Below, in pieces: positions 6,997-20,856 of a stretch of 26,213 nucleotides of DNA. A model generated the notes under the pieces. That model was not told the DNA's origin. It was given only the letters and a program-made list of their open reading frames with translations, and ran no database searches. The stretch is from the IMG/VR virus record IMGVR_UViG_3300025438_000119, positions 1-26,213 of that record; one strand, given 5' to 3'. Position numbers and translations under genes: made by a program. Numbering within the stretch: position 1 is the stretch's first letter; the number at the start of each line of letters is the position of its first letter. This stretch comes from a virus.

Positions 6997-8016
6997 ATGG
7001 CCGACTTCGCTATCGGGCAAACGTTCATCAAGGCGCACCGCAGCATCCTGCTGATGACGCCGCTCACCGCCCCATGCCGCTACTTCCCCACGCGGGACAG
7101 CATGGGCTGGATCACCCGCCCCACCCTTGACACTGGCGACTGGGCGCGAGAGCTCCAGACCGTGAAACAGGTCAGTTTCTCCGTTGACAACAACGACCGA
7201 GAGTTCCGACTGATCGGCGATGACGGGTGGAGCGATTCCGTAACCACTGGCAGCATGGTATCTGCCAGCTTCGATACGTTTTTCTCGAAGGCGATCGTTC
7301 GGAAGCCGACAGGGAATTGCCCTGAGTTCATCGGCGATTACTCCGAAGAGTTCGGGATTGTTGCGCAAGCCCGCGACAACACCGACTTCGAGGTGTTCAT
7401 CGAGATGTTCAAAGAGCTTGGCCGCTCTGATGGCGGTTCCGGCAACTACATCTACGATTACGCCGGGTTCAACTGCGCGCTGCGGAACTACAAAGAGCCG
7501 CAAACTGCTGAGGATCTGATCAATGTGACCTTCGACGGCAAGAGCCGCGGCCGGGCCGTGTTTGGTCGCTTTGATGCCGGCGGCGCTCCGCTCTCCAGTG
7601 GAGCAATCCAAAGCGTGATCCTGGCGACTGATCCAGCCACCGGCGGCCGCCGCTATGCGCTGGCCCCGGCTGACAACGCTACCGACGTAACGGCTACCGG
7701 CAACATCACGGTGACCTACACCAGTGATGGCAGCACCGCCCTGCCCCAGCTGGCGCTGGGTGCGAGCGATGGCAGCGGCTTCCGCCTGGAGGTTGCTTCC
7801 AGCGGCGTTCAGGTGCCGGCTGCGGTGAGCCTCAACGCTGGCACCGGTGTGGTGACAGTCAACCCAGATGCCACGCTGGGGGCCTCGACCATCTACCGCC
7901 TGGTCGCCCGTAACGGTGCGATCGTTCAAGCCGTGGATGCGTCGCTGGTTGCTGATGCAGCTGGCATCCAGCGCCCGCTGGCCGGCTTCGCCAGCACCTT
8001 CCGCACCGCGTCCTAA
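6997..8016 (+). CDS. Major tail tube protein with C-terminal Ig-like domain
   Basis: A 339-residue protein with a strong ribosome binding site (AGGAGG) before the ATG, as expected for a tube subunit made in many copies. Residues 1-215 form the presumed tube domain (ELQTVKQVSFSVDNNDREFR, SMVSASFDTFF, GRAVFGRFDAGG). From about residue 224 the pattern APADNATDVTATGNITVTYT is the start of an SbsA/Big_5-type Ig-like domain running to the C-terminus. Such domains decorate the outside of many siphovirus tubes and can bind surface sugars. There is no sheath gene, which supports a non-contractile tail. Beyond the stop, transcription meets a hairpin and then the unusual island. Confidence 0.8.
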   Translation: MADFAIGQTFIKAHRSILLMTPLTAPCRYFPTRDSMGWITRPTLDTGDWARELQTVKQVSFSVDNNDREFRLIGDDGWSDSVTTGSMVSASFDTFFSKAIVRKPTGNCPEFIGDYSEEFGIVAQARDNTDFEVFIEMFKELGRSDGGSGNYIYDYAGFNCALRNYKEPQTAEDLINVTFDGKSRGRAVFGRFDAGGAPLSSGAIQSVILATDPATGGRRYALAPADNATDVTATGNITVTYTSDGSTALPQLALGASDGSGFRLEVASSGVQVPAAVSLNAGTGVVTVNPDATLGASTIYRLVARNGAIVQAVDASLVADAAGIQRPLAGFASTFRTAS

Positions 8017-8021
8017 GGACT

Positions 8022-8040
8022 GGGGCCTCTGGCCCCTTTC
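8022..8040 (+). terminator. Weak hairpin after the tail tube gene
   Basis: GGGGCC-TCT-GGCCCC is a perfect six-base-pair hairpin just after the tail tube stop, followed only by TTTCC. It could be a leaky terminator or an mRNA 3'-end stabiliser lowering expression of downstream tail genes. The T-run is too short for a confident strong terminator. The hairpin also lies just past the stop of the minus-strand frame ending at 8068. Confidence 0.45.
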
Positions 8041-8046
8041 CAAGCA

Positions 8047-8178
8047 ATGAACCGTCGCTACCGAGCTCTACAACAGCGCATTGACGCCGCCCGGAAGAAG
8101 TGCGGCGTTGGCTACAGCTGCGGCAGCACGTGCATCACGGTGCGGAAGGAGGGCCTGGTCACCCCCGATCCGCGATGA
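8047..8178 (+). CDS. Short Cys-motif reading frame, possibly a gene fragment
   Basis: A 43-residue frame (MNRRYRALQQRIDAARKKC at the start) with a tight cysteine cluster KKCGVGYSCGSTCI (C19, C25, C29). From memory, similar K-C-x2-G-x-x-C-G-x-x-C-I clusters occur in phage head-morphogenesis or ART proteins of cyanobacteria. If so, this would be a displaced fragment of the kind of gene truncated at 778-960, but I cannot verify that. No ribosome binding site is visible and the frame stops soon after the cluster. It is antisense to the end of a minus-strand frame; at most one of the two is likely functional here. Confidence 0.35.
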   Translation: MNRRYRALQQRIDAARKKCGVGYSCGSTCITVRKEGLVTPDPR

Positions 8179-8409
8179 ACCGGAACCGGAACGTGGCTGA
8201 CCCGTGACGCCACAGCCCGCCCAGCGGCGCCAGCGGTGGCCCAGGGCCGGCTCATCAGGCCTCCAGCGGTCGTGCCAATGGGCAATCGCGGCATAGGCCT
8301 CAGGGGGCCAGCCGGCGGCATCACCCAGTTGCTGCAACGCCTTCAGCTCGGCCGCGGCCGCGTGTGTCGGCTTGATCGCCGGCTCTCCCTTAGGGGCGAG
8401 CAGCGGCAC
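8068..8409 (-). CDS. Hypothetical minus-strand protein A of the island
   Basis: From a GTG at 8409 the minus strand reads 113 residues: MPLLAPKGEPAIKPTH, then ELKALQQLGDAAGWPPEAYA and AIAHWHDRWRPDEP, with host-like GC-rich third positions. The last ~35 residues (antisense of 8068-8178) look like filler, so the true end may differ. The first ~25 codons are duplicated at 8636-8706. There, four of the five changed codons are synonymous in this frame, which argues for translation on this strand. A TTG at 8493 would extend the N-terminus through a hairpin region and seems unlikely. The family is not recognised. Its opposite orientation to the tail operon marks it as a moron or insertion. Confidence 0.4.
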   Translation of the reverse strand: MPLLAPKGEPAIKPTHAAAAELKALQQLGDAAGWPPEAYAAIAHWHDRWRPDEPALGHRWRRWAGCGVTGQPRSGSGSSRIGGDQALLPHRDARAAAAVANAALLPGGVNALL

Positions 8410-8496
8410 ACTTGCGCTATTGTTGGACCAATTCCATCCCGATTTAGGGATGGTGGCTTCACGGGTTGCCCCCCGTGAAGCAGATAAAATCAAGGG
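8339..8496. repeat. Direct repeat R, copy A (158 bp)
   Basis: This copy matches 8636-8793 at about 145 of 158 positions with no gaps (counted by eye). It contains two perfect hairpins: CATCCC-GATTTA-GGGATG at 8435-8452 and TTCACGGG-TTGCCC-CCCGTGAA at 8458-8479. A third hairpin, imperfect in this copy, lies around CTCTCCCTTAGGGGCGAG. It covers the start of minus-strand frame A and the sequence ahead of it. A palindrome TTGGACCAA sits between the hairpins. Confidence 0.85.
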
Positions 8497-8574
8497 GGGA
8501 ATCTCCTTTGATGTCCCCAGCTGCCTGCGGTCCTAGTCGCCAAACAAAGAAACGCAGACGCTGGGAGGAATAGT

Positions 8575-8643
8575 GAGAGGGGGCCTTTCGGGGCCCTTTC
8601 TTTTTGGTCAGTTGGTCGGCATAGAGACGCCGAGCGCCTTCAG
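8575..8643. repeat. Direct repeat T, copy 1 (69 bp, contains a terminator)
   Basis: This 69-base stretch is repeated at 8857-8925 with one base changed. It holds a GC-rich hairpin and T-run, then TTGGTCGGCATAGAGACGCC, and runs directly into repeat R copy B. On the minus strand its second half encodes the shared C-terminus LKALGVSMPTN and a stop codon. T followed by R forms the repeated unit; R copy A lacks a T in front. Confidence 0.85.
8577..8605 (+). terminator. Intrinsic terminator inside the island (copy 1)
   Basis: GGGCC at 8581-8585 pairs with GGCCC at 8592-8596, extendable by G-U pairs. It is followed by TTTCTTTTT (8597-8605). This is a convincing plus-strand terminator in the middle of the tail operon. 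In the minus direction the bases after the hairpin are not T-rich. Confidence 0.65.
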
Positions 8644-8706
8644 CTCGGCTGCGGCCCTATGTGTCGGCTTGATCGCCGGCTCGCCCTTAGGGGCGAGCAG
8701 CGGCAC
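8608..8706 (-). CDS. Short minus-strand frame B, chimeric copy of A and C
   Basis: From a GTG at 8706 the frame gives 32 residues: MPLLAPKGEPAIKPTHRAAA, then ELKALGVSMPTN and a stop. The N-terminal part is the duplicate of frame A; the C-terminal 11 residues and the DNA after them duplicate the end of frame C. It therefore looks like a product of unequal recombination between two minus-strand genes, or a truncated copy. The family is unknown. Whether it is translated is uncertain: no ribosome binding site stands out. Confidence 0.3.
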   Translation of the reverse strand: MPLLAPKGEPAIKPTHRAAAELKALGVSMPTN

Positions 8707-8793
8707 ACTTGCACTATTGTTGGACCAATTCCATCCCGATTTAGGGATGGTGGTTTCACGGGGTGCAACCCGTGAAGCAGGCAGAATCAAGGG
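8636..8793. repeat. Direct repeat R, copy B (158 bp)
   Basis: This is the second copy of the 158-base element at 8339-8496, offset by 297 bases. The stems CATCCC/GGGATG (8732-8749) and TTCACGGG/CCCGTGAA (8755-8776) are unchanged, while the loop of the latter differs (GTGCAA instead of TTGCCC). The CTCGCC-CTTAGG-GGCGAG hairpin is perfect here. It follows T copy 1 without a gap and is followed by about 63 bases of unshared sequence before T copy 2. Confidence 0.85.
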
Positions 8794-8856
8794 ATTTTTC
8801 CTTTGGTTGAGCCGGTTCGGAGTTCGAGCTCCTGCCGGTGATCTGTTTTCTGAAAC

Positions 8857-8925
8857 GAGAGGGGGCCCTTCGGGGCCCTTTCTTTTTGGTCAGTTGGTCG
8901 GCATAGAGACGCCGAGCGCCTTCAG
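8857..8925. repeat. Direct repeat T, copy 2 (69 bp, contains a terminator)
   Basis: It is 68 of 69 bases identical to 8575-8643. The match stops exactly at the CTTCAG where R would begin, and the sequence then diverges into minus-strand frame C. This marks the right boundary of the duplication. Confidence 0.85.
8861..8887 (+). terminator. Strong intrinsic terminator inside the island (copy 2)
   Basis: GGGCCC-TTCG-GGGCCC is a perfect six-base-pair stem closed by a C(UUCG)G tetraloop (8863-8878). It is followed by TTTCTTTTT (8879-8887). It is one of the clearest terminators in the window and points in the direction of the tail operon. Confidence 0.8.
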
Positions 8926-9069
8926 GCCAGAGCGCAAGAGATCCGAATCAGGGATGCAGGCCCCGCGCTGCTCATGGGCAAAGTGCCAGGGGCAAATCCA
9001 AAGCCGGCGCCGACTCTCACGAAGGAAGAGATCGCTGGGATCAAAGAGAACAGCGATGCTGGCCCGCAC
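8890..9069 (-). CDS. Short minus-strand frame C
   Basis: From a GTG at 9069 the minus strand gives 59 residues, including SIAVLFDPSDLFLRES, RRLWICPWHFAHEQRGACIP and the C-terminus LKALGVSMPTN shared with frame B. Two Cys and two His (C-PWHFAH-EQRGA-C) might bind a metal, but no family is recognised. Third positions are GC-rich, while the plus-strand frame over the same bases is full of rare Arg codons and looks like a shadow. The start is uncertain and no ribosome binding site is seen. Confidence 0.35.
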   Translation of the reverse strand: MRASIAVLFDPSDLFLRESRRRLWICPWHFAHEQRGACIPDSDLLRSGLKALGVSMPTN

Positions 9070-9154
9070 ATTCGATGCCAATGCCGAGGAGTATTGGGTG
9101 GTCTGGGATCGTTCTATTGTGGTTGCAGCCAGAGATCCCCAGCTCGACGCATGA
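9056..9154 (+). CDS. Very short plus-strand gene or 3' fragment
   Basis: A 32-residue frame (MLARTFDANAEEYWVVWDRS, ending AARDPQLDA). Its stop overlaps the next ATG in the ATGA arrangement used throughout this operon, which is the main support. A longer in-frame version from 8954 adds 34 Arg/Ser-rich residues that look like antisense of frame C. It may be the surviving 3' end of a tail gene cut by the island. The family is unknown. Confidence 0.35.
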   Translation: MLARTFDANAEEYWVVWDRSIVVAARDPQLDA

Positions 9155-9372
9155 ACACCCGCCCCCCAGACGTAAGCCACACCCTCGCCGTGGTGGTTGG
9201 ATACCTGCGCCGAGGCCCCACGACGCGGCGGCGCTTCCTTGCGCTGATCGAATCGGCGCCCAACTATCAGCAGCTGCACCTCCAGGCCCAGGGCGAGGGC
9301 CTTTACGCTTCCCCGGCCGCGGCTGAAGAAGCAGCAGCGGCGATGGGCCTGGCGATCGAAGCAACGGCCTGA
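9151..9372 (+). CDS. Hypothetical small tail-operon protein
   Basis: A 73-residue protein starting MNTRPPDVSHTLAVVVGYLR. The N-terminal half is basic and helical (RRGPTTRRRFLALIESAP); the C-terminal half is alanine-rich (AAAEEAAAAMGLAIEATA). An in-frame ATG at 8974 would extend it by 59 residues of unlikely composition, so I take the ATG that overlaps the previous stop. The family is not recognised. It lies between tail tube and chaperones, where phages often carry small accessory tail genes. Confidence 0.55.
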   Translation: MNTRPPDVSHTLAVVVGYLRRGPTTRRRFLALIESAPNYQQLHLQAQGEGLYASPAAAEEAAAAMGLAIEATA

Positions 9373-9380
9373 GCCGCCGC

Positions 9381-9629
9381 ATGTTTCACCGGTTGTTGGT
9401 TTCGCCAATGCAGAACGTGGTGGCGATCCACTGCAATTTCAACGAGGCTGGCGATCAACTGAAGGTGGGGATGCTGGTGGTTGAGGCCGGCACCATCTCT
9501 TCCGACGTGCTGGTGTCACCGCCGACCGGCGGCGCGGCCTTCTATCTGGCCTTGCCTGAGGATGTTCTCAATGCAGGGCAGCGCTACGTTGGGTGGCAGA
9601 TCAGTTCCCCAATCAGGCCAGCCGCATGA
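9381..9629 (+). CDS. Hypothetical protein upstream of the tail chaperone
   Basis: An 82-residue protein that looks beta-rich (NVVAIHCNFNEAGDQLKVGM, VVEAGTISSDVLVSPPTGGA). It starts eight bases after the previous stop and ends in an ATGA overlap with the chaperone gene. An alternative start, ATG 9408, would drop nine residues. No family is recognised. Confidence 0.6.
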   Translation: MFHRLLVSPMQNVVAIHCNFNEAGDQLKVGMLVVEAGTISSDVLVSPPTGGAAFYLALPEDVLNAGQRYVGWQISSPIRPAA

Positions 9630-10261
9630 GCGTCAGCAGCAGAATCCTGGCCACCTTCCGCACCGATTACAAGGTGCTGGGGCCGTTCCGGTTGGCTGTC
9701 TACGGCAAATTGCTCCAGGGTGAAGCGGAGCTGCTCGAGCAACAGCAGCGTGATCAGACCGTCACCTATGGCGCCTACATCCGCCTCACTCAATCCATTG
9801 CCAGGGAGACAGGTCTGCCGATTGAGGATGTTGACCAAATCATTGCTCAGTTCCAGACCAGCAGCGACATCAACGACACCCAGGCGATCAATGAGAAGCT
9901 CAAAGCGCTTGGAGCTCTGAGCAGCGATGCCCAGGAGTTCAGCGCTTTCCTGAACAGTCAGGCGCTGCTGAGTGATCACAAGCGAACGCTGGTGACAGCG
10001 CTGCTGCTTGGTCGCGCTGAATACATGGCCGCGGAAGATGAGTCTGAGGAATGGATTCATCTCAAGCGTGGCGAGTGGGACATGGAAGACACCCGGAAAT
10101 TGCCGAAACCCATGGTGGATGAGCTCCATGACTTCCTGATGGGCGAGCGAGCTGCGCAGGTGGAAGCGGGAAAGCCGCCGGAGATGAAGGCCCAGAAGAG
10201 GCCCCGAACGACCAAACTCTCACCCGCGACGAACAGCTCGCCCGCATTGACGCCTTCCTGA
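9626..10261 (+). CDS. Tail assembly chaperone, short form (lambda gpG-like)
   Basis: A 211-residue protein starting in an ATGA overlap (MSVSSRILATFRTDYKVLGP). It is largely helical (QQQRDQTVTYGAYIRLTQSI; DVDQIIAQFQTSSDIN). By position, just before the tape measure gene, and by the frameshift arrangement at its 3' end it corresponds to lambda gpG. That chaperone coats the tape measure protein during tail assembly and is absent from the finished virion. I rely on genetic architecture rather than sequence similarity. The upstream ATG at 9593 lies inside the previous gene and is rejected. Confidence 0.75.
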   Translation: MSVSSRILATFRTDYKVLGPFRLAVYGKLLQGEAELLEQQQRDQTVTYGAYIRLTQSIARETGLPIEDVDQIIAQFQTSSDINDTQAINEKLKALGALSSDAQEFSAFLNSQALLSDHKRTLVTALLLGRAEYMAAEDESEEWIHLKRGEWDMEDTRKLPKPMVDELHDFLMGERAAQVEAGKPPEMKAQKRPRTTKLSPATNSSPALTPS

Positions 10262-10665
10262 GCACCCCTCCTACTGATTGGGATGAGATCCAGCTGGTGC
10301 TCACCAGCGGGCTCACCCATGATCCCCGCTGGCAGGCCGATCGATTCCACCTCCAACCGGTTGACGCCGTTCTGAAGGCCTACGGCTGGGCCCTGAAAGA
10401 GAAGGCGAAGCGCACCAATGAGCTGAGCACCACCACGGCCCGGCTGGCGGTGCTGGTGGAGATGGCCGGCTTCCCAGGGTTGGGCAGCAAAGGCCGCACA
10501 GAGGAACAGTTCCTGCCGTTTGACATCCGCGACGCCGACAGCCAGCGGGCCCAGCGGCTCACGCCAGAGGTGGCCGCCACAATCCGCTCCCTGCTTCGTG
10601 ATGGCCAACTGCCGCCCCGGGTGCTGGTGCTGGCAGTGGAAGAGCTCGAGCGCTCCAAACTCTGA
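9626..10665 (+). CDS. Tail assembly chaperone frameshift product (lambda gpGT-like)
   Basis: A -1 shift at GGGAAAG (10168-10174) moves ribosomes from the G frame into a second open frame that continues from 10174 to 10665. It joins 183 residues of the short form to 163 new residues, 346 in total. The T part (DEQLARIDAFLSTPPTDWDE, then RWQADRFHLQPVDAVLKAYG) has no plausible start of its own near its beginning. The first ATG is at 10297, well inside, as expected for a frame reached only by shifting. In lambda the T domain recruits the tube subunit to the G-coated tape measure. The tape measure gene follows directly. Confidence 0.78.
10168..10174 (+). promoter_or_regulatory. Programmed -1 frameshift site GGGAAAG
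   Basis: The heptamer sits in register G-GGA-AAG with the short-form frame, so tandem slippage by -1 gives GGG-AAA with re-pairing. It is the same heptamer as the lambda G/GT slippery site. It is the only heptamer of this type I find in the overlap between the two frames (10132-10261), and the downstream -1 frame is open to 10665. Confidence 0.82.
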
Positions 10666-10683
10666 CGCCGTTGCGGCCTCAGA

Positions 10684-13600
10684 ATGGTTTCAAGACAAGG
10701 TGAACGTTTGACCAGCAGCGGCGGGGGCGGCGGCGAATACACCCTGGGTACAGCCACCCTGACCCTTAGGGGCGACCTGAAGCCGCTTGAGGCTGACCTG
10801 GCCAAGATGCGGCGGATGATCGCCGACATGGAGCGGCGGCAGACCAACATTCCGGCGCCCAAGATCCCGCCGCCTTCCGCTGAAACCCAGAGCGGGTTTG
10901 ATCGGCTGCAGGGCACGTTGGAGCAGCTCCGCAAAGGGATCACTGGCGACAGCTCAGCCTGGGACGCAATGGCGGCTCGCCTGAAAGGCGCCGGCGCTGC
11001 TGGTGCCGGCGCGGCTGGTGGAATCGGCGGTGCTGGCGCCGCGCTCGGCAGCATGGTGGGCATGGCCGGGAAGGCGATCCCGATCCTCGGCCAGCTCGGC
11101 CTGGCGGCAGCGGGCGTCAAGGTGGTGTTTGGCGCGGTTTCGACAGCGATCGGCGCCGTGATCGGCCCGCTTCAGGCGCTGACCGCTGAGACGGCGCTGT
11201 TCAACCGGCAAATGAATGAAGCTGGGGCCGTGATGGCAAACCAGTTCGCTATTTTTGCTGATGGAAAGATCGTTGAAGGCACCGCCCGCCAGATGAGAAT
11301 GGTCCGTGGCACTATTCTCGACGAATACAAATACATCCAGAAGGAAGTAGCTAATATCAGCGGCTCTACAGCAGCTCAGATATACGATAGCTTCAACATC
11401 ATAATGACCCACAGCAACAGCTTGGGGGATAAAGGCACCCCGCAGAACGCTTCCAAGCTTGCTACCCGCATCGCGGCAGGTATGAACACGTTTGGGATCC
11501 CGCAAAACCAGATGATGCAGGAGACAAACGCTCTGATGATGGGCAACATCGATCCCAACGCGATGCTGGCCCAGAAGTTGGAGATCACATCTTCTGATGT
11601 AAAGGAACAGCAGAAGCAGGGCAAATATTACGACTTTTTGATGGGGAAGCTTGAAACCCTCTACGAGGGCCAGAAGGAGCTGGGGGTGAGCCTTCAGAAC
11701 GTGATGAGCAATTTCGAGTCCGTCAGCCAGACGATCACGGCGAAATCAGGCGTTGCGCTGGAGGCTTCTTCCGCCGCCATGCTTCAAACCGTGTTGACCA
11801 CGTTCCAGAACCTGCAGTCCAGCTTTGAAATGCTGCTGTCATCGCTTGCTGAGGCGGTGGCCCCCCTGCTGGAGCTCATGGGCCCGGTGCTCTCTGTGCT
11901 GACTTCGATCGGCAGTGTCCTGGCCTCTGTTGGCGGGATGGCGCTTGATGTGATCGGCGCGGTGTCCGCGGTCGTGAAGTCTTCTCTCTTGGCGCCATTG
12001 GTGGCTGTGGCTAGGAGCATTGAGCTGATCGCCAAAGGAGCGGAACTTGCCGCAAAAATATTGTCAGATGGCTTTGATTCAATAAAGGTCGCTCTTGGCT
12101 TCTTCCCCGACGAATCAGCTGATGGCGTCAACAAGTTCTTCGACAATCTGATCGGTGGCATTGAGCAGGCCGGCGAGTCCCTGGACCGCGCCCGCCTGGA
12201 TCGCTTGCAGAATCAGCTCGGCAATGGGCTGGGCAGGATCCGAACACAAGGGGAGGCGGAGGGGCTCTCTGAGTTCGCCATCAAAGAGCGCCAGGACAAG
12301 TTCCGTGACGACTTCATTGAGCGGACCGGCCTCGTTACTGATGTTGAGCTCCGCAGCCTCAAGCTCTCAAAAGAGGCCCAGGCCGATCTGGACGCCTTCA
12401 ACGCTGCGCTGGGCACCGGATCAACCCGTGCCCTGAACGTGTCCAAGCAATGGGCCGAGATCAAGACCAAGGGCTACCAGAACGAGATCAAGAGCTTGGA
12501 GCAGGGCCTTGGCCTGATGACCCGGCAGAAGGCCGTTGCGGAGGCCATGGCCGCCGTTGCCGATGCCCGCCGCGCTTTCACCGCCCACGGCTTCGAGCTT
12601 GGTGTCCAGGTGTCGGCATCACCAGAAGCCAAGGCCGCGGCAGTAGCCCGCCTGAACAATCTCAAGTTTGAGCAGGAGAAGGAAGCGATCCAGGAACGGA
12701 AGGGCCTGCTGCAATCCGAGCGGGAGATGCAGCAGCGGCAGATGGCGATCCAAGAGAAGCAGCTGCTGATCCAACAGGAGCAGCTCAAAATCGCGGTGGT
12801 TGAGGCAGAGAACAGTCGAAACAAAGGCAAGGAGACGACTCAGGAGCTGCTGCGCAAGCGCGGAAACACCCGCTTTGGCACCCCCGCCTATTTCGCCGTC
12901 ACTGCAGAGCTGAACGCCCAGATGGCCCGCACCACCCGGGACAACGCCATCCTCAATCACGCCAAAGAGGCCCGCCGCCTGGGCTTTGAAGCGATCAGTC
13001 AACTGGGCACCATCAACAGCCTCGAGCAACAGCGCATGGACCTGCAGCTGGAGCAGCTTGGCCTTCAGGAGCAGGGCGCCCAGTACACCCTGGAGCAACA
13101 GCGCCTGATGGTCGAGATTGCCGCCGCTGGCCAGGACATCGCCAACACCATGGCCGCGGCGAACAATGAAGCCACCGCCCGCAACAACGAGCTCAACAAC
13201 GAGAAAGCAACAATCCAGGATCAGTTGGCCCTTCAGGCTGAGCAGGTGAGGCTCGACAAGGCCCGCACTGACCTGGCCATCACCCGCGGCCGCGCTGCGG
13301 TTCAGGAAGCAGAGCGGCTGCAGTCAGTCCAGCAAGCGCAGGCCAGCGCCCGGAGCGGTGGCGGCGTGGTGGCCGTGGTCGAAGCACAGATTGCGGCGGC
13401 CGCGGCTGGTGTGACGGGAATGGAAACCGCCGCCGAGGCGCAGGAACGGCTCTATGCCGCGAAGGAAGCGCAGATGGAGCGCGAGCATCGGATGCAGCAA
13501 GAACAACTGCGCATCCAGCAGCTGCGCGAGCAATCTGAGCTGCGCATTCAGCAGCTCACACTTCAAAGCCAACAGGTGGAGATCACCTTGGCGCGGGCAA

Positions 13601-19600: not shown

Positions 19601-20856
19601 ATAAGTGGGCGAAGGTGGCGGAGGTGTTTGTCTACGACGAAATCCAGACCAGCGCATCCGTGGGCCCGGAGCATGAAATCGCCTATGTGAACGTCATCCA
19701 GACCAACGCCGTCGCCCCGAGCTACCGCAACCTGGCCGGGCTGGGCCTCTCCATCCGCAGCTCCCTCGAGTTCAGCTCTGTTGGCCAGTTCTCTGCGCAG
19801 CTGCTCGGCGGGCACAGCGCTGAGCGCTACCTCGAAGAAACAGCTGGGCCCAGCCATCTGCTGCCAGATGCGTTTCGCACTCTTGCGTTAAGCCCTGATT
19901 TTGGCGGCGGCCTGGAGGTTGCCCCTGATCAGATCAACGAGCCCAGCTCTGTGGTGGCCGCTCAATGGTGCTTCGATCGCCGCTACTTCTTCGATGGCAC
20001 CCTGGGCACCCCAGAGAACCTGAGAGGGTGGGCAGCTGAGCAGGCCCCGTTGCATCTGCTCGCCTTCTATGAGCTCAATGGCCAGTTCTATTGGAAGCCA
20101 GCGATCACCTGGGACCCGGTGCCAATCGTTGACCTGTTCACGGCGGCGAACATCAAGCCCGGCAGCTTCAAATCAACAACCAGCGACGACGACCAGCGCC
20201 GCCCGATCCAGGTTTCAGGCGCCTACCGCGATGAACGGGCCAACGATGACATCCAGGCGCCGGGCATGTTTGCCACAGCGCGAGAGATCACGATCCGGGA
20301 GGCCTCCGGCAGCGACAGCGACCCGATCGAGCCGCTCGACATCACCGACAGCTGCACCAACCGGTGGCACCTGCTCGACGCAATGAAGTTCTTGATCCGC
20401 TGGCGCCGGCTGGTGGGTGATCCGATCAGCTTCGAGACAAATTACTCTGGCCTGCTCCGCCCTATCAGCCCAGAAGACCATATCGCCGTGGCTTACGACG
20501 AAGTGCTCGATGAGCTCTATTCCAACGGCGCCGTGTTGGCAGATGGAACGCTGATCGCCACCGAACCACTGGCGGATGGATCCTACGAAGTGCTGGCATG
20601 GGACGGGATCACGCTGCCAGGCCCCACGATCCAAACCCTCACCGTTACCGACCAAGGGAAGACCGGCTCACCGGTGGGCATCAACTGGACCCGCACCGCG
20701 CCGCCCCAGGTGCGAACCTACCGGGTAATGCGGGTGTCTCCCACGGATGACGGCCGCCTGCGGATCGAGGCCCTGCTGATGCCCACCGATGATGAAGGGC
20801 GCCTGCTGATCTCCCTAGATTGGGACGATGAAGATGCCTGGGTGATTCGAGGCTGA
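16687..20856 (+). CDS. Tail tip hub / host specificity protein (TipJ-like)
   Basis: A 1389-residue protein starting in an ATGA overlap (MKHPLPLPGDEYLAELLGWT). Residues 50-73 (TLAVISLVTTILSVGYTLLS) form one hydrophobic segment of the kind seen in lambda gpI and at the start of TipJ proteins. It is followed by DTISDSGRYSPRP and GTVIPVTFARREF, typical of the hub core. Two similar 40-50-residue modules lie at about 811-850 and 895-940 (LPAELETGITYWVAG; LPSPLVADTEYFVHS). The C-terminal part (NRWHLLDAMKFLIRWRRLVG, then a fibronectin-like end) resembles J hubs. It should form the trimeric tip that closes the tube. A start at 16648 adds 13 residues inside the previous gene. Confidence 0.8.
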   Translation: MKHPLPLPGDEYLAELLGWTPEQLLQYQTERWQAAAQAPAPLVVCEPISGTLAVISLVTTILSVGYTLLSLLLAPKQRRPGEIRSTQRQGDTISDSGRYSPRPGFDSTQEVARLGTVIPVTFARREFLPALNGRPEGFYGGIRINAGLVWSQMFSLGGSQLFRGVYVLGEAPIASVDPQGFALGNNPLRSYDLGTDGANEAAARLTIYSRPGGGRILGTDRVAGRLASADLGNVENAGGADVFQLGSLGNAILPDACATGRPSTSTSFGLYATVANGLGYRVNPQLRPTRVMTAKPSGNDGDQRLDPTDDVVALGALWKARSMWSGRSGITTTSRGWVSNSATLEIGDSFLYLLSNTTDAKTQFQFDGSQTDSDQKHRETFSDVAVAISSRQRSADDALLIGDIYKAGSCLAVLETRTPSADVFVSDADNEPVGGGQQMVCLFRVIRGGIVNETTDNEINPSTSGGRTEPRVADESDNWDWASIDPGPRYPTGTSRGHLHRCAIADFTLARPAQVIEIGFRSTVGIRGQGFANVRQIPSLREINKKAGGEREGEILESGDKLEISSFQTGTRSFSEERYSFFRVSYRAEAGATFTELPTIYGVRGLTQQPQYNYLRLQMPSAARWQYRIEPLSGWEIRSGAQAGSMAVLDARRNVIESVQSFTDGAVVATYTGEAPFTRSVERFSLDSIEPNERSSLVGLATQTNNDRGRPGTYTNAVILQDGEATNSRATVVVPTDGNFDDLAITMTEAGNDYNGDDALTLINGDSGSSRVLSTRSFQLAPTSIAFGYGRLSVPENTVVPRTGSRVSFSGTLPAELETGITYWVAGLLGGNGFAVSETDGGSLVLVGLGGSSSAMTCTQWVDAFTLTAASAGPFTVVGGPAVPAVDTPIEFDSTGTLPSPLVADTEYFVHSVGATTFLVSATVGGSSISLSTAGTGVITGRISNATNWVGAPLLGKTDIGIGWSDEDALTDKWAKVAEVFVYDEIQTSASVGPEHEIAYVNVIQTNAVAPSYRNLAGLGLSIRSSLEFSSVGQFSAQLLGGHSAERYLEETAGPSHLLPDAFRTLALSPDFGGGLEVAPDQINEPSSVVAAQWCFDRRYFFDGTLGTPENLRGWAAEQAPLHLLAFYELNGQFYWKPAITWDPVPIVDLFTAANIKPGSFKSTTSDDDQRRPIQVSGAYRDERANDDIQAPGMFATAREITIREASGSDSDPIEPLDITDSCTNRWHLLDAMKFLIRWRRLVGDPISFETNYSGLLRPISPEDHIAVAYDEVLDELYSNGAVLADGTLIATEPLADGSYEVLAWDGITLPGPTIQTLTVTDQGKTGSPVGINWTRTAPPQVRTYRVMRVSPTDDGRLRIEALLMPTDDEGRLLISLDWDDEDAWVIRG

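Follow-up and report, generated by a model that had tools for sequence, protein, structure and literature searches.

Tail assembly chaperones made by programmed frameshifting are best known from the G/GT genes of phage lambda, where low-level −1 frameshifting links two products at a ratio of 30:1 (PMC5009743). According to that review, the tape measure protein is the binding partner of gpG and of the G portion of gpGT, whereas the T portion attaches to the major tail subunit; long-tailed phages widely share the G/GT arrangement although their sequences are little alike, and frames are shifted very readily at the heptamer G_GGA_AAG in E. coli. Many such pairs stay unjoined in annotation, as described for PRFect (PMC10885494). 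The haloarchaeal tailed viruses HCTV-1, HCTV-2 and HCTV-5 may be a further close known system, in other hosts. In a literature search by title and opening of the abstract, with subscription papers mostly outside its range, no paper on tail-chaperone frameshifting in a cyanosiphovirus was found.

The DNA analysed here (the window) is the 26,213-nt record IMGVR_UViG_3300025438_000119 of an uncultured virus, the capsid protein of which has Synechococcus phage S-CBS4 as its closest named relative (45%). Two overlapping reading frames just upstream of its tape measure gene very probably (probability about 0.93) form a single, −1-frameshifted gene of an S-CBS4-related tailed phage, coding for a chaperone of the lambda G/GT type. 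Assignment to this type is favoured because the site, the direction of the shift and the gene order all fit. The frames, the site, its conservation, the gene order and a synonymous constraint in the sister clade are computed features, from which we infer the slip, its rate and the chaperone role.

Reading 5' to 3', a capsid gene (Pfam Major_capside) is followed by a candidate tail tube gene, a gene-poor stretch, an 82-aa ORF, the short frame, the −1 frame and the tape measure gene (see table). The product of the candidate tail tube gene matches the major tail protein family phrog_820 only at E 0.19; the gene is kept at the same place in related contigs. The tape measure protein carries a SLT_3 lysozyme-like domain (residues 1170–1258, E 3e-13). 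The gene-poor stretch (nt 8017–9375) comprises 1.36 kb without a clear gene and harbors repeats of 159 nt (direct; 8338/8635, 92%), 69 nt (8575/8857, 99%) and 24 nt (inverted). Near-identical contigs diverge or stop within it, and one related locus (L015) has about 2.2 kb of dissimilar sequence at this place. A search of nt 7900–11000 against Rfam gave no match above the gathering score.

Features of the predicted frameshifted gene and its neighbours in the window
Feature	Position (nt)	Strand	Evidence
Candidate major tail (tube) protein, C-terminal Ig-like domain	6997..8016	+	Big_5, E 6e-6
Short form (211 aa), predicted chaperone of tail assembly with a gpG-like role	9626..10261	+	Conserved in homologues
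Overlap, both frames open	10132..10261	+	Frame computation
Slippery heptamer G-GGA-AAG	10168..10174	+	Heptamer at this place in 37/37 testable records
−1 frame extension, 163 aa, predicted gpT-like role	10174..10665	+	Conserved in both clades
Tape measure protein, 1708 aa	10684..15810	+	phrog_305 tape measure, E 0.0021 (first 667 aa)

An earlier note on this DNA, made from the sequence alone, had placed the end of the short frame at nt 10261 and an open −1 frame at nt 10132–10665, with no start near its beginning. The frame computation agrees on each point: the zero frame runs from ATG 9626 to a stop at nt 10259–10261, the last upstream stop of the −1 frame lies at nt 10129, and the first ATG, GTG or TTG of that frame is GTG 10297. 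For the short frame the program-made ORF list gives a 222-aa ORF from GTG 9593; alignment with homologues supports ATG 9626 as the start, which overlaps (ATGA) the stop codon of the ORF before it. GGGAAAG at nt 10168–10174 is, as the note had said, the sole in-register heptamer of the form X-XXY-YYZ within the overlap, its codons being GGA at nt 10169 and AAG at nt 10172. A slip there would join 183 residues to 163 to give the 346-residue fusion that had been proposed, with the junction between GK and AAGDE.

On this reading, most ribosomes would complete the 211-aa short protein. A minority would move back by one base on reaching G-GGA-AAG, with both tRNAs pairing anew on GGG and AAA, and would go on to make the fusion of 346 aa. 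If the proteins act as gpG and gpGT do in lambda, the short domain would form a coat on the tape measure protein, and the less abundant fusion would use its extension to bring in the tail tube subunit. Lambda itself (NC_001416) has the same heptamer, GGGAAAG, likewise directing a −1 shift shortly before the short frame ends, and shares the order of major tail protein (a candidate here), chaperone pair and tape measure gene, so that the likeness in site, direction and position claimed in the note is borne out. The two differ in spacing: counted from the start of the heptamer through the end of the stop codon, the distance is 24 nt in lambda and 93 nt in the window.

When the 43 codons of the overlap were recoded synonymously at the codon usage of the window, any in-register slippery heptamer appeared in 3.9% of cases and GGGAAAG in 1.5%; in 24% the −1 frame remained free of stops throughout the overlap. 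The chance probability of the heptamer in the window taken alone is only moderately small; the deciding evidence is conservation in homologues.

Related contigs were gathered by using the capsid protein and an extension profile as queries. Thirty-eight records hold the extension (the window and 37 IMG/VR loci), of which 37 could be tested, as L047 begins inside the extension; L016 and L021, duplicates of L041 and L040, were left out of the counts. Many records are near-identical; the 31 taken from the 38 represent 24 distinct contexts downstream of the heptamer (GGGAAAG in 10, A7 in 14). In all 37 testable records the second frame lies at −1, the overlap is open in both frames, and an in-register heptamer is found at the corresponding place. 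The window shares with G/GT pairs two overlapping, −1-related frames immediately before the tape measure gene and a slippery heptamer in their overlap that is conserved in homologues. The note had named conservation of the heptamer as a check, and homologues fused in-frame or devoid of a heptamer as evidence against a shift; 0 of the 37 were of either kind. What is conserved is the site and not the GGGAAAG of the note, since heptamer identity varies: GGGAAAG occurs in 21 records, and A-AAA-AAA in the 16 of the S-CBS4 clade. In the window's clade (clade 1), all 10 distinct contexts retain GGA AAG at the site; GGA makes up 9.5% of the glycine codons in the window. Loci of the L027 type have GGGGGGAAAG, which holds two overlapping heptamers, and L055 and L058 have an additional AAAGGGG 84 nt upstream.

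Identity to the short protein of the window is 43–50% in diverged clade-1 records and 20–24% in the S-CBS4 clade. The extension is better conserved (64–72% and 29–34%, respectively), and in its single-coding part (133–141 codons; 10 pairwise comparisons) most changes affect the third codon position in the −1 frame, a pattern indicating that it is under protein-level selection in that frame.

Among the named phages searched, the only convincing match was to S-CBS4, and a scan of bacterial genome contigs found no relative. In S-CBS4 (L057/L023; HQ698895, nt 19779–20746) the homologous pair, gp032 and gp033, lies directly before a gene annotated as tape measure, as in the window, but its heptamer is A-AAA-AAA and it has a Shine-Dalgarno (SD)-like element upstream. 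Its short frame begins at ATG 19779, upstream of the annotated start of gp032. The record lists the two as separate hypothetical proteins, with gp033 called as a shortened, 222-nt gene; the expectation that automatic annotation would split the pair and miss the fusion holds for this example.

The signals around the heptamer differ between the clades. In the window, the 60 nt downstream fold no better than shuffled sequence (z −0.30), and the upstream SD-like match is not distinctive, 10% of control windows being as good; both observations weaken the frameshift explanation for the window itself. SD-like matches are likewise ordinary in L039, L040 and L042. In the S-CBS4 clade (14 of its 16 records used), codons 158–169 have a synonymous identity of 0.977 against 0.625 gene-wide, the highest of any 12-codon window in the short gene. 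This stretch finishes at or just past the heptamer, and its upstream part contains CGGAGGTGAA, a strong SD-like element, which in S-CBS4 itself reads GGAGGTGA. The anti-SD match (−15.4 kcal/mol; 5 of the 16 records examined) ends 12 nt before the heptamer, and in these five sequences just 2% of the gene's control windows do as well; no ATG, GTG or TTG lies between the element and the heptamer in the contexts examined. Stimulation of −1 shifting by an SD-like element at similar spacing is known from work on dnaX.

Twelve contexts were folded downstream of the heptamer. L029, L038, L043 and L053 gave z below −2, L026, L030 and L039 gave z between −1 and −2, and the window, L040, L042, L044 and L057 (S-CBS4) gave z above −1; as the values range so widely, there is no universal downstream structure. 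A hairpin 4 nt downstream in clade 1 is strong in L029 (z −2.7) and L038 (z −3.0) and weaker in L030 (−1.5). Another, 11 nt downstream in the S-CBS4 clade, is strong in some members (L043, z −3.6, and L053, z −2.3, with paired changes between the two) and absent from S-CBS4 itself. In the alignment of the clade-2 hairpin, 84.8% of cells are paired and 2 of 8 pairs are changed on both sides; in 7 of the 14 sequences, two of the inner pairs cannot form.

These observations somewhat favour the view that one orthologous chaperone lineage has exchanged its frameshift signal at an unchanged position, with selection acting on where the slip occurs while the cis-signal turns over. The window's clade would then rely on G-GGA-AAG, a site of the lambda type, almost or entirely unaided by a stimulator, although in some relatives a GC-rich hairpin lies 4 nt downstream. 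In the S-CBS4 clade the signal would be dnaX-like, consisting of an 8-base anti-SD match, a spacing of 12 nt, A-AAA-AAA and, in part of the clade, a hairpin at +11 nt.

The main alternative, that these are two separate but translationally coupled genes, with the extension made alone from an internal start (GTG 10297) after the stop at nt 10261, appears improbable. Such a GTG does exist 36 nt past the stop of the short frame, and automatic gene callers and the S-CBS4 record use starts of this kind. However, in the window and the listed clade-1 records other than L026, which has a GTG upstream of the heptamer, the conserved TPPTDWDEI block of the extension precedes the first ATG, GTG or TTG of the −1 frame, and independent initiation is therefore unlikely to yield the full conserved domain. 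In many clade-1 relatives the first start codon is found only about 63 residues into the extension. Two coupled genes would also leave unexplained why every one of the 37 records has a heptamer at this position, and why synonymous sites upstream of it are constrained.

A −1 message could also arise by slippage of the polymerase, and not of the ribosome, on a run of A or G. Some sites are indeed homopolymeric (A7 in the S-CBS4 clade, and six Gs before AAAG in loci of the L027 type), but the window has merely GGG AAA, seven As are short for transcriptional slippage, and the conserved anti-SD match 12 nt upstream points to the ribosome; this explanation is very improbable. Least credible, to the point of being negligible, is an assembly error or pseudogene in which an indel has split one gene, as the identical −1 split recurs in 37 records and both frames are under selection; nothing in its favour emerged.

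Similarity to known chaperone families is faint. Pfam, PHROG and NCBIfam gave no chaperone family for the two proteins of the window, which also counts against the frameshift explanation. Neither the window's extension nor the window in six frames is matched by PF06223 (Phage_tail_T) or phrog_337, both of which match lambda gpT itself (E 4.5e-16 and 4.7e-7). Across the 22 extensions, PF06223 gave sub-threshold matches to 11 (best E 0.0027, S-CBS4 clade) and phrog_337, which has no curated cut-off, gave weak matches to 11 (best E 0.00098, S-CBS4 clade). The matches fall in extension residues 81–145 in the members listed singly; of four extensions so listed, three match PF06223 at 14.2–15.6 bits against a curated cut-off of 25.9, and the extension thus falls short of the curated similarity cut-off for the gpT family. 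Homology to lambda T was not supported by hhalign, in which the extension profile (22 sequences) scored a probability of 0.1 against a narrow profile of eight lambda-T relatives. A shallow profile of the short protein (24 of 25 distinct sequences; L056, with a longer called start, omitted) scored 0.15 against seven lambda-G relatives. Given these low values, the family matches are leads only, and the S-CBS4-clade extension offers at best a very weak lead for distant gpT homology, short of membership. The note's remark that the proteins look unrelated to those of lambda holds for the short protein, for which no relation to gpG was detected, and is qualified for the extension by these weak matches in the S-CBS4 clade.

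The matches listed in a second lambda-T search were all to lambda-like enterobacterial phages, apart from a few of Vibrio. In the five lambda relatives N15, phi80, HK225, Fels-1 and mEp460, the G gene has GGAAAAG close to its end and no in-register X-XXY-YYZ, and for this reason the identical heptamer in the window and lambda most likely reflects convergence on an efficient site.

AlphaFold2 models of the short form and the extension are mediocre (pLDDT 63.3 and 57.5), and searches with both against a viral structure library and the PDB returned no chaperone, a further point against the proposed role. Below E 0.001 the viral library gave one match each, the unnamed A0A346A5Z9 (E 3e-4) for the short form and the uncharacterised A0A6J7WZS6 (E 1.4e-4) for the extension. 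A0A346A600, seemingly the next accession after A0A346A5Z9, weakly matches the extension model (E 2.1), and the two may represent such a pair annotated apart in another phage. The PDB fold matches listed were generic helical ones only (Z up to 7.3, with mediocre models), and a PDB sequence search gave nothing meaningful (one designed helical protein, E 0.0002, for the extension).

This case, ordinary but well-supported, leaves a well-known mechanism unchanged. Its consequence is a corrected annotation for a cyanophage lineage, S-CBS4 and relatives, and the addition of a predicted chaperone pair missed by the family models that were tried. The locus also offers a natural set of variants, since one gene appears to achieve the same end through two heptamers with different helpers, and if the signal has been rebuilt in place, the ratio of the two products would, by inference, also be under selection.
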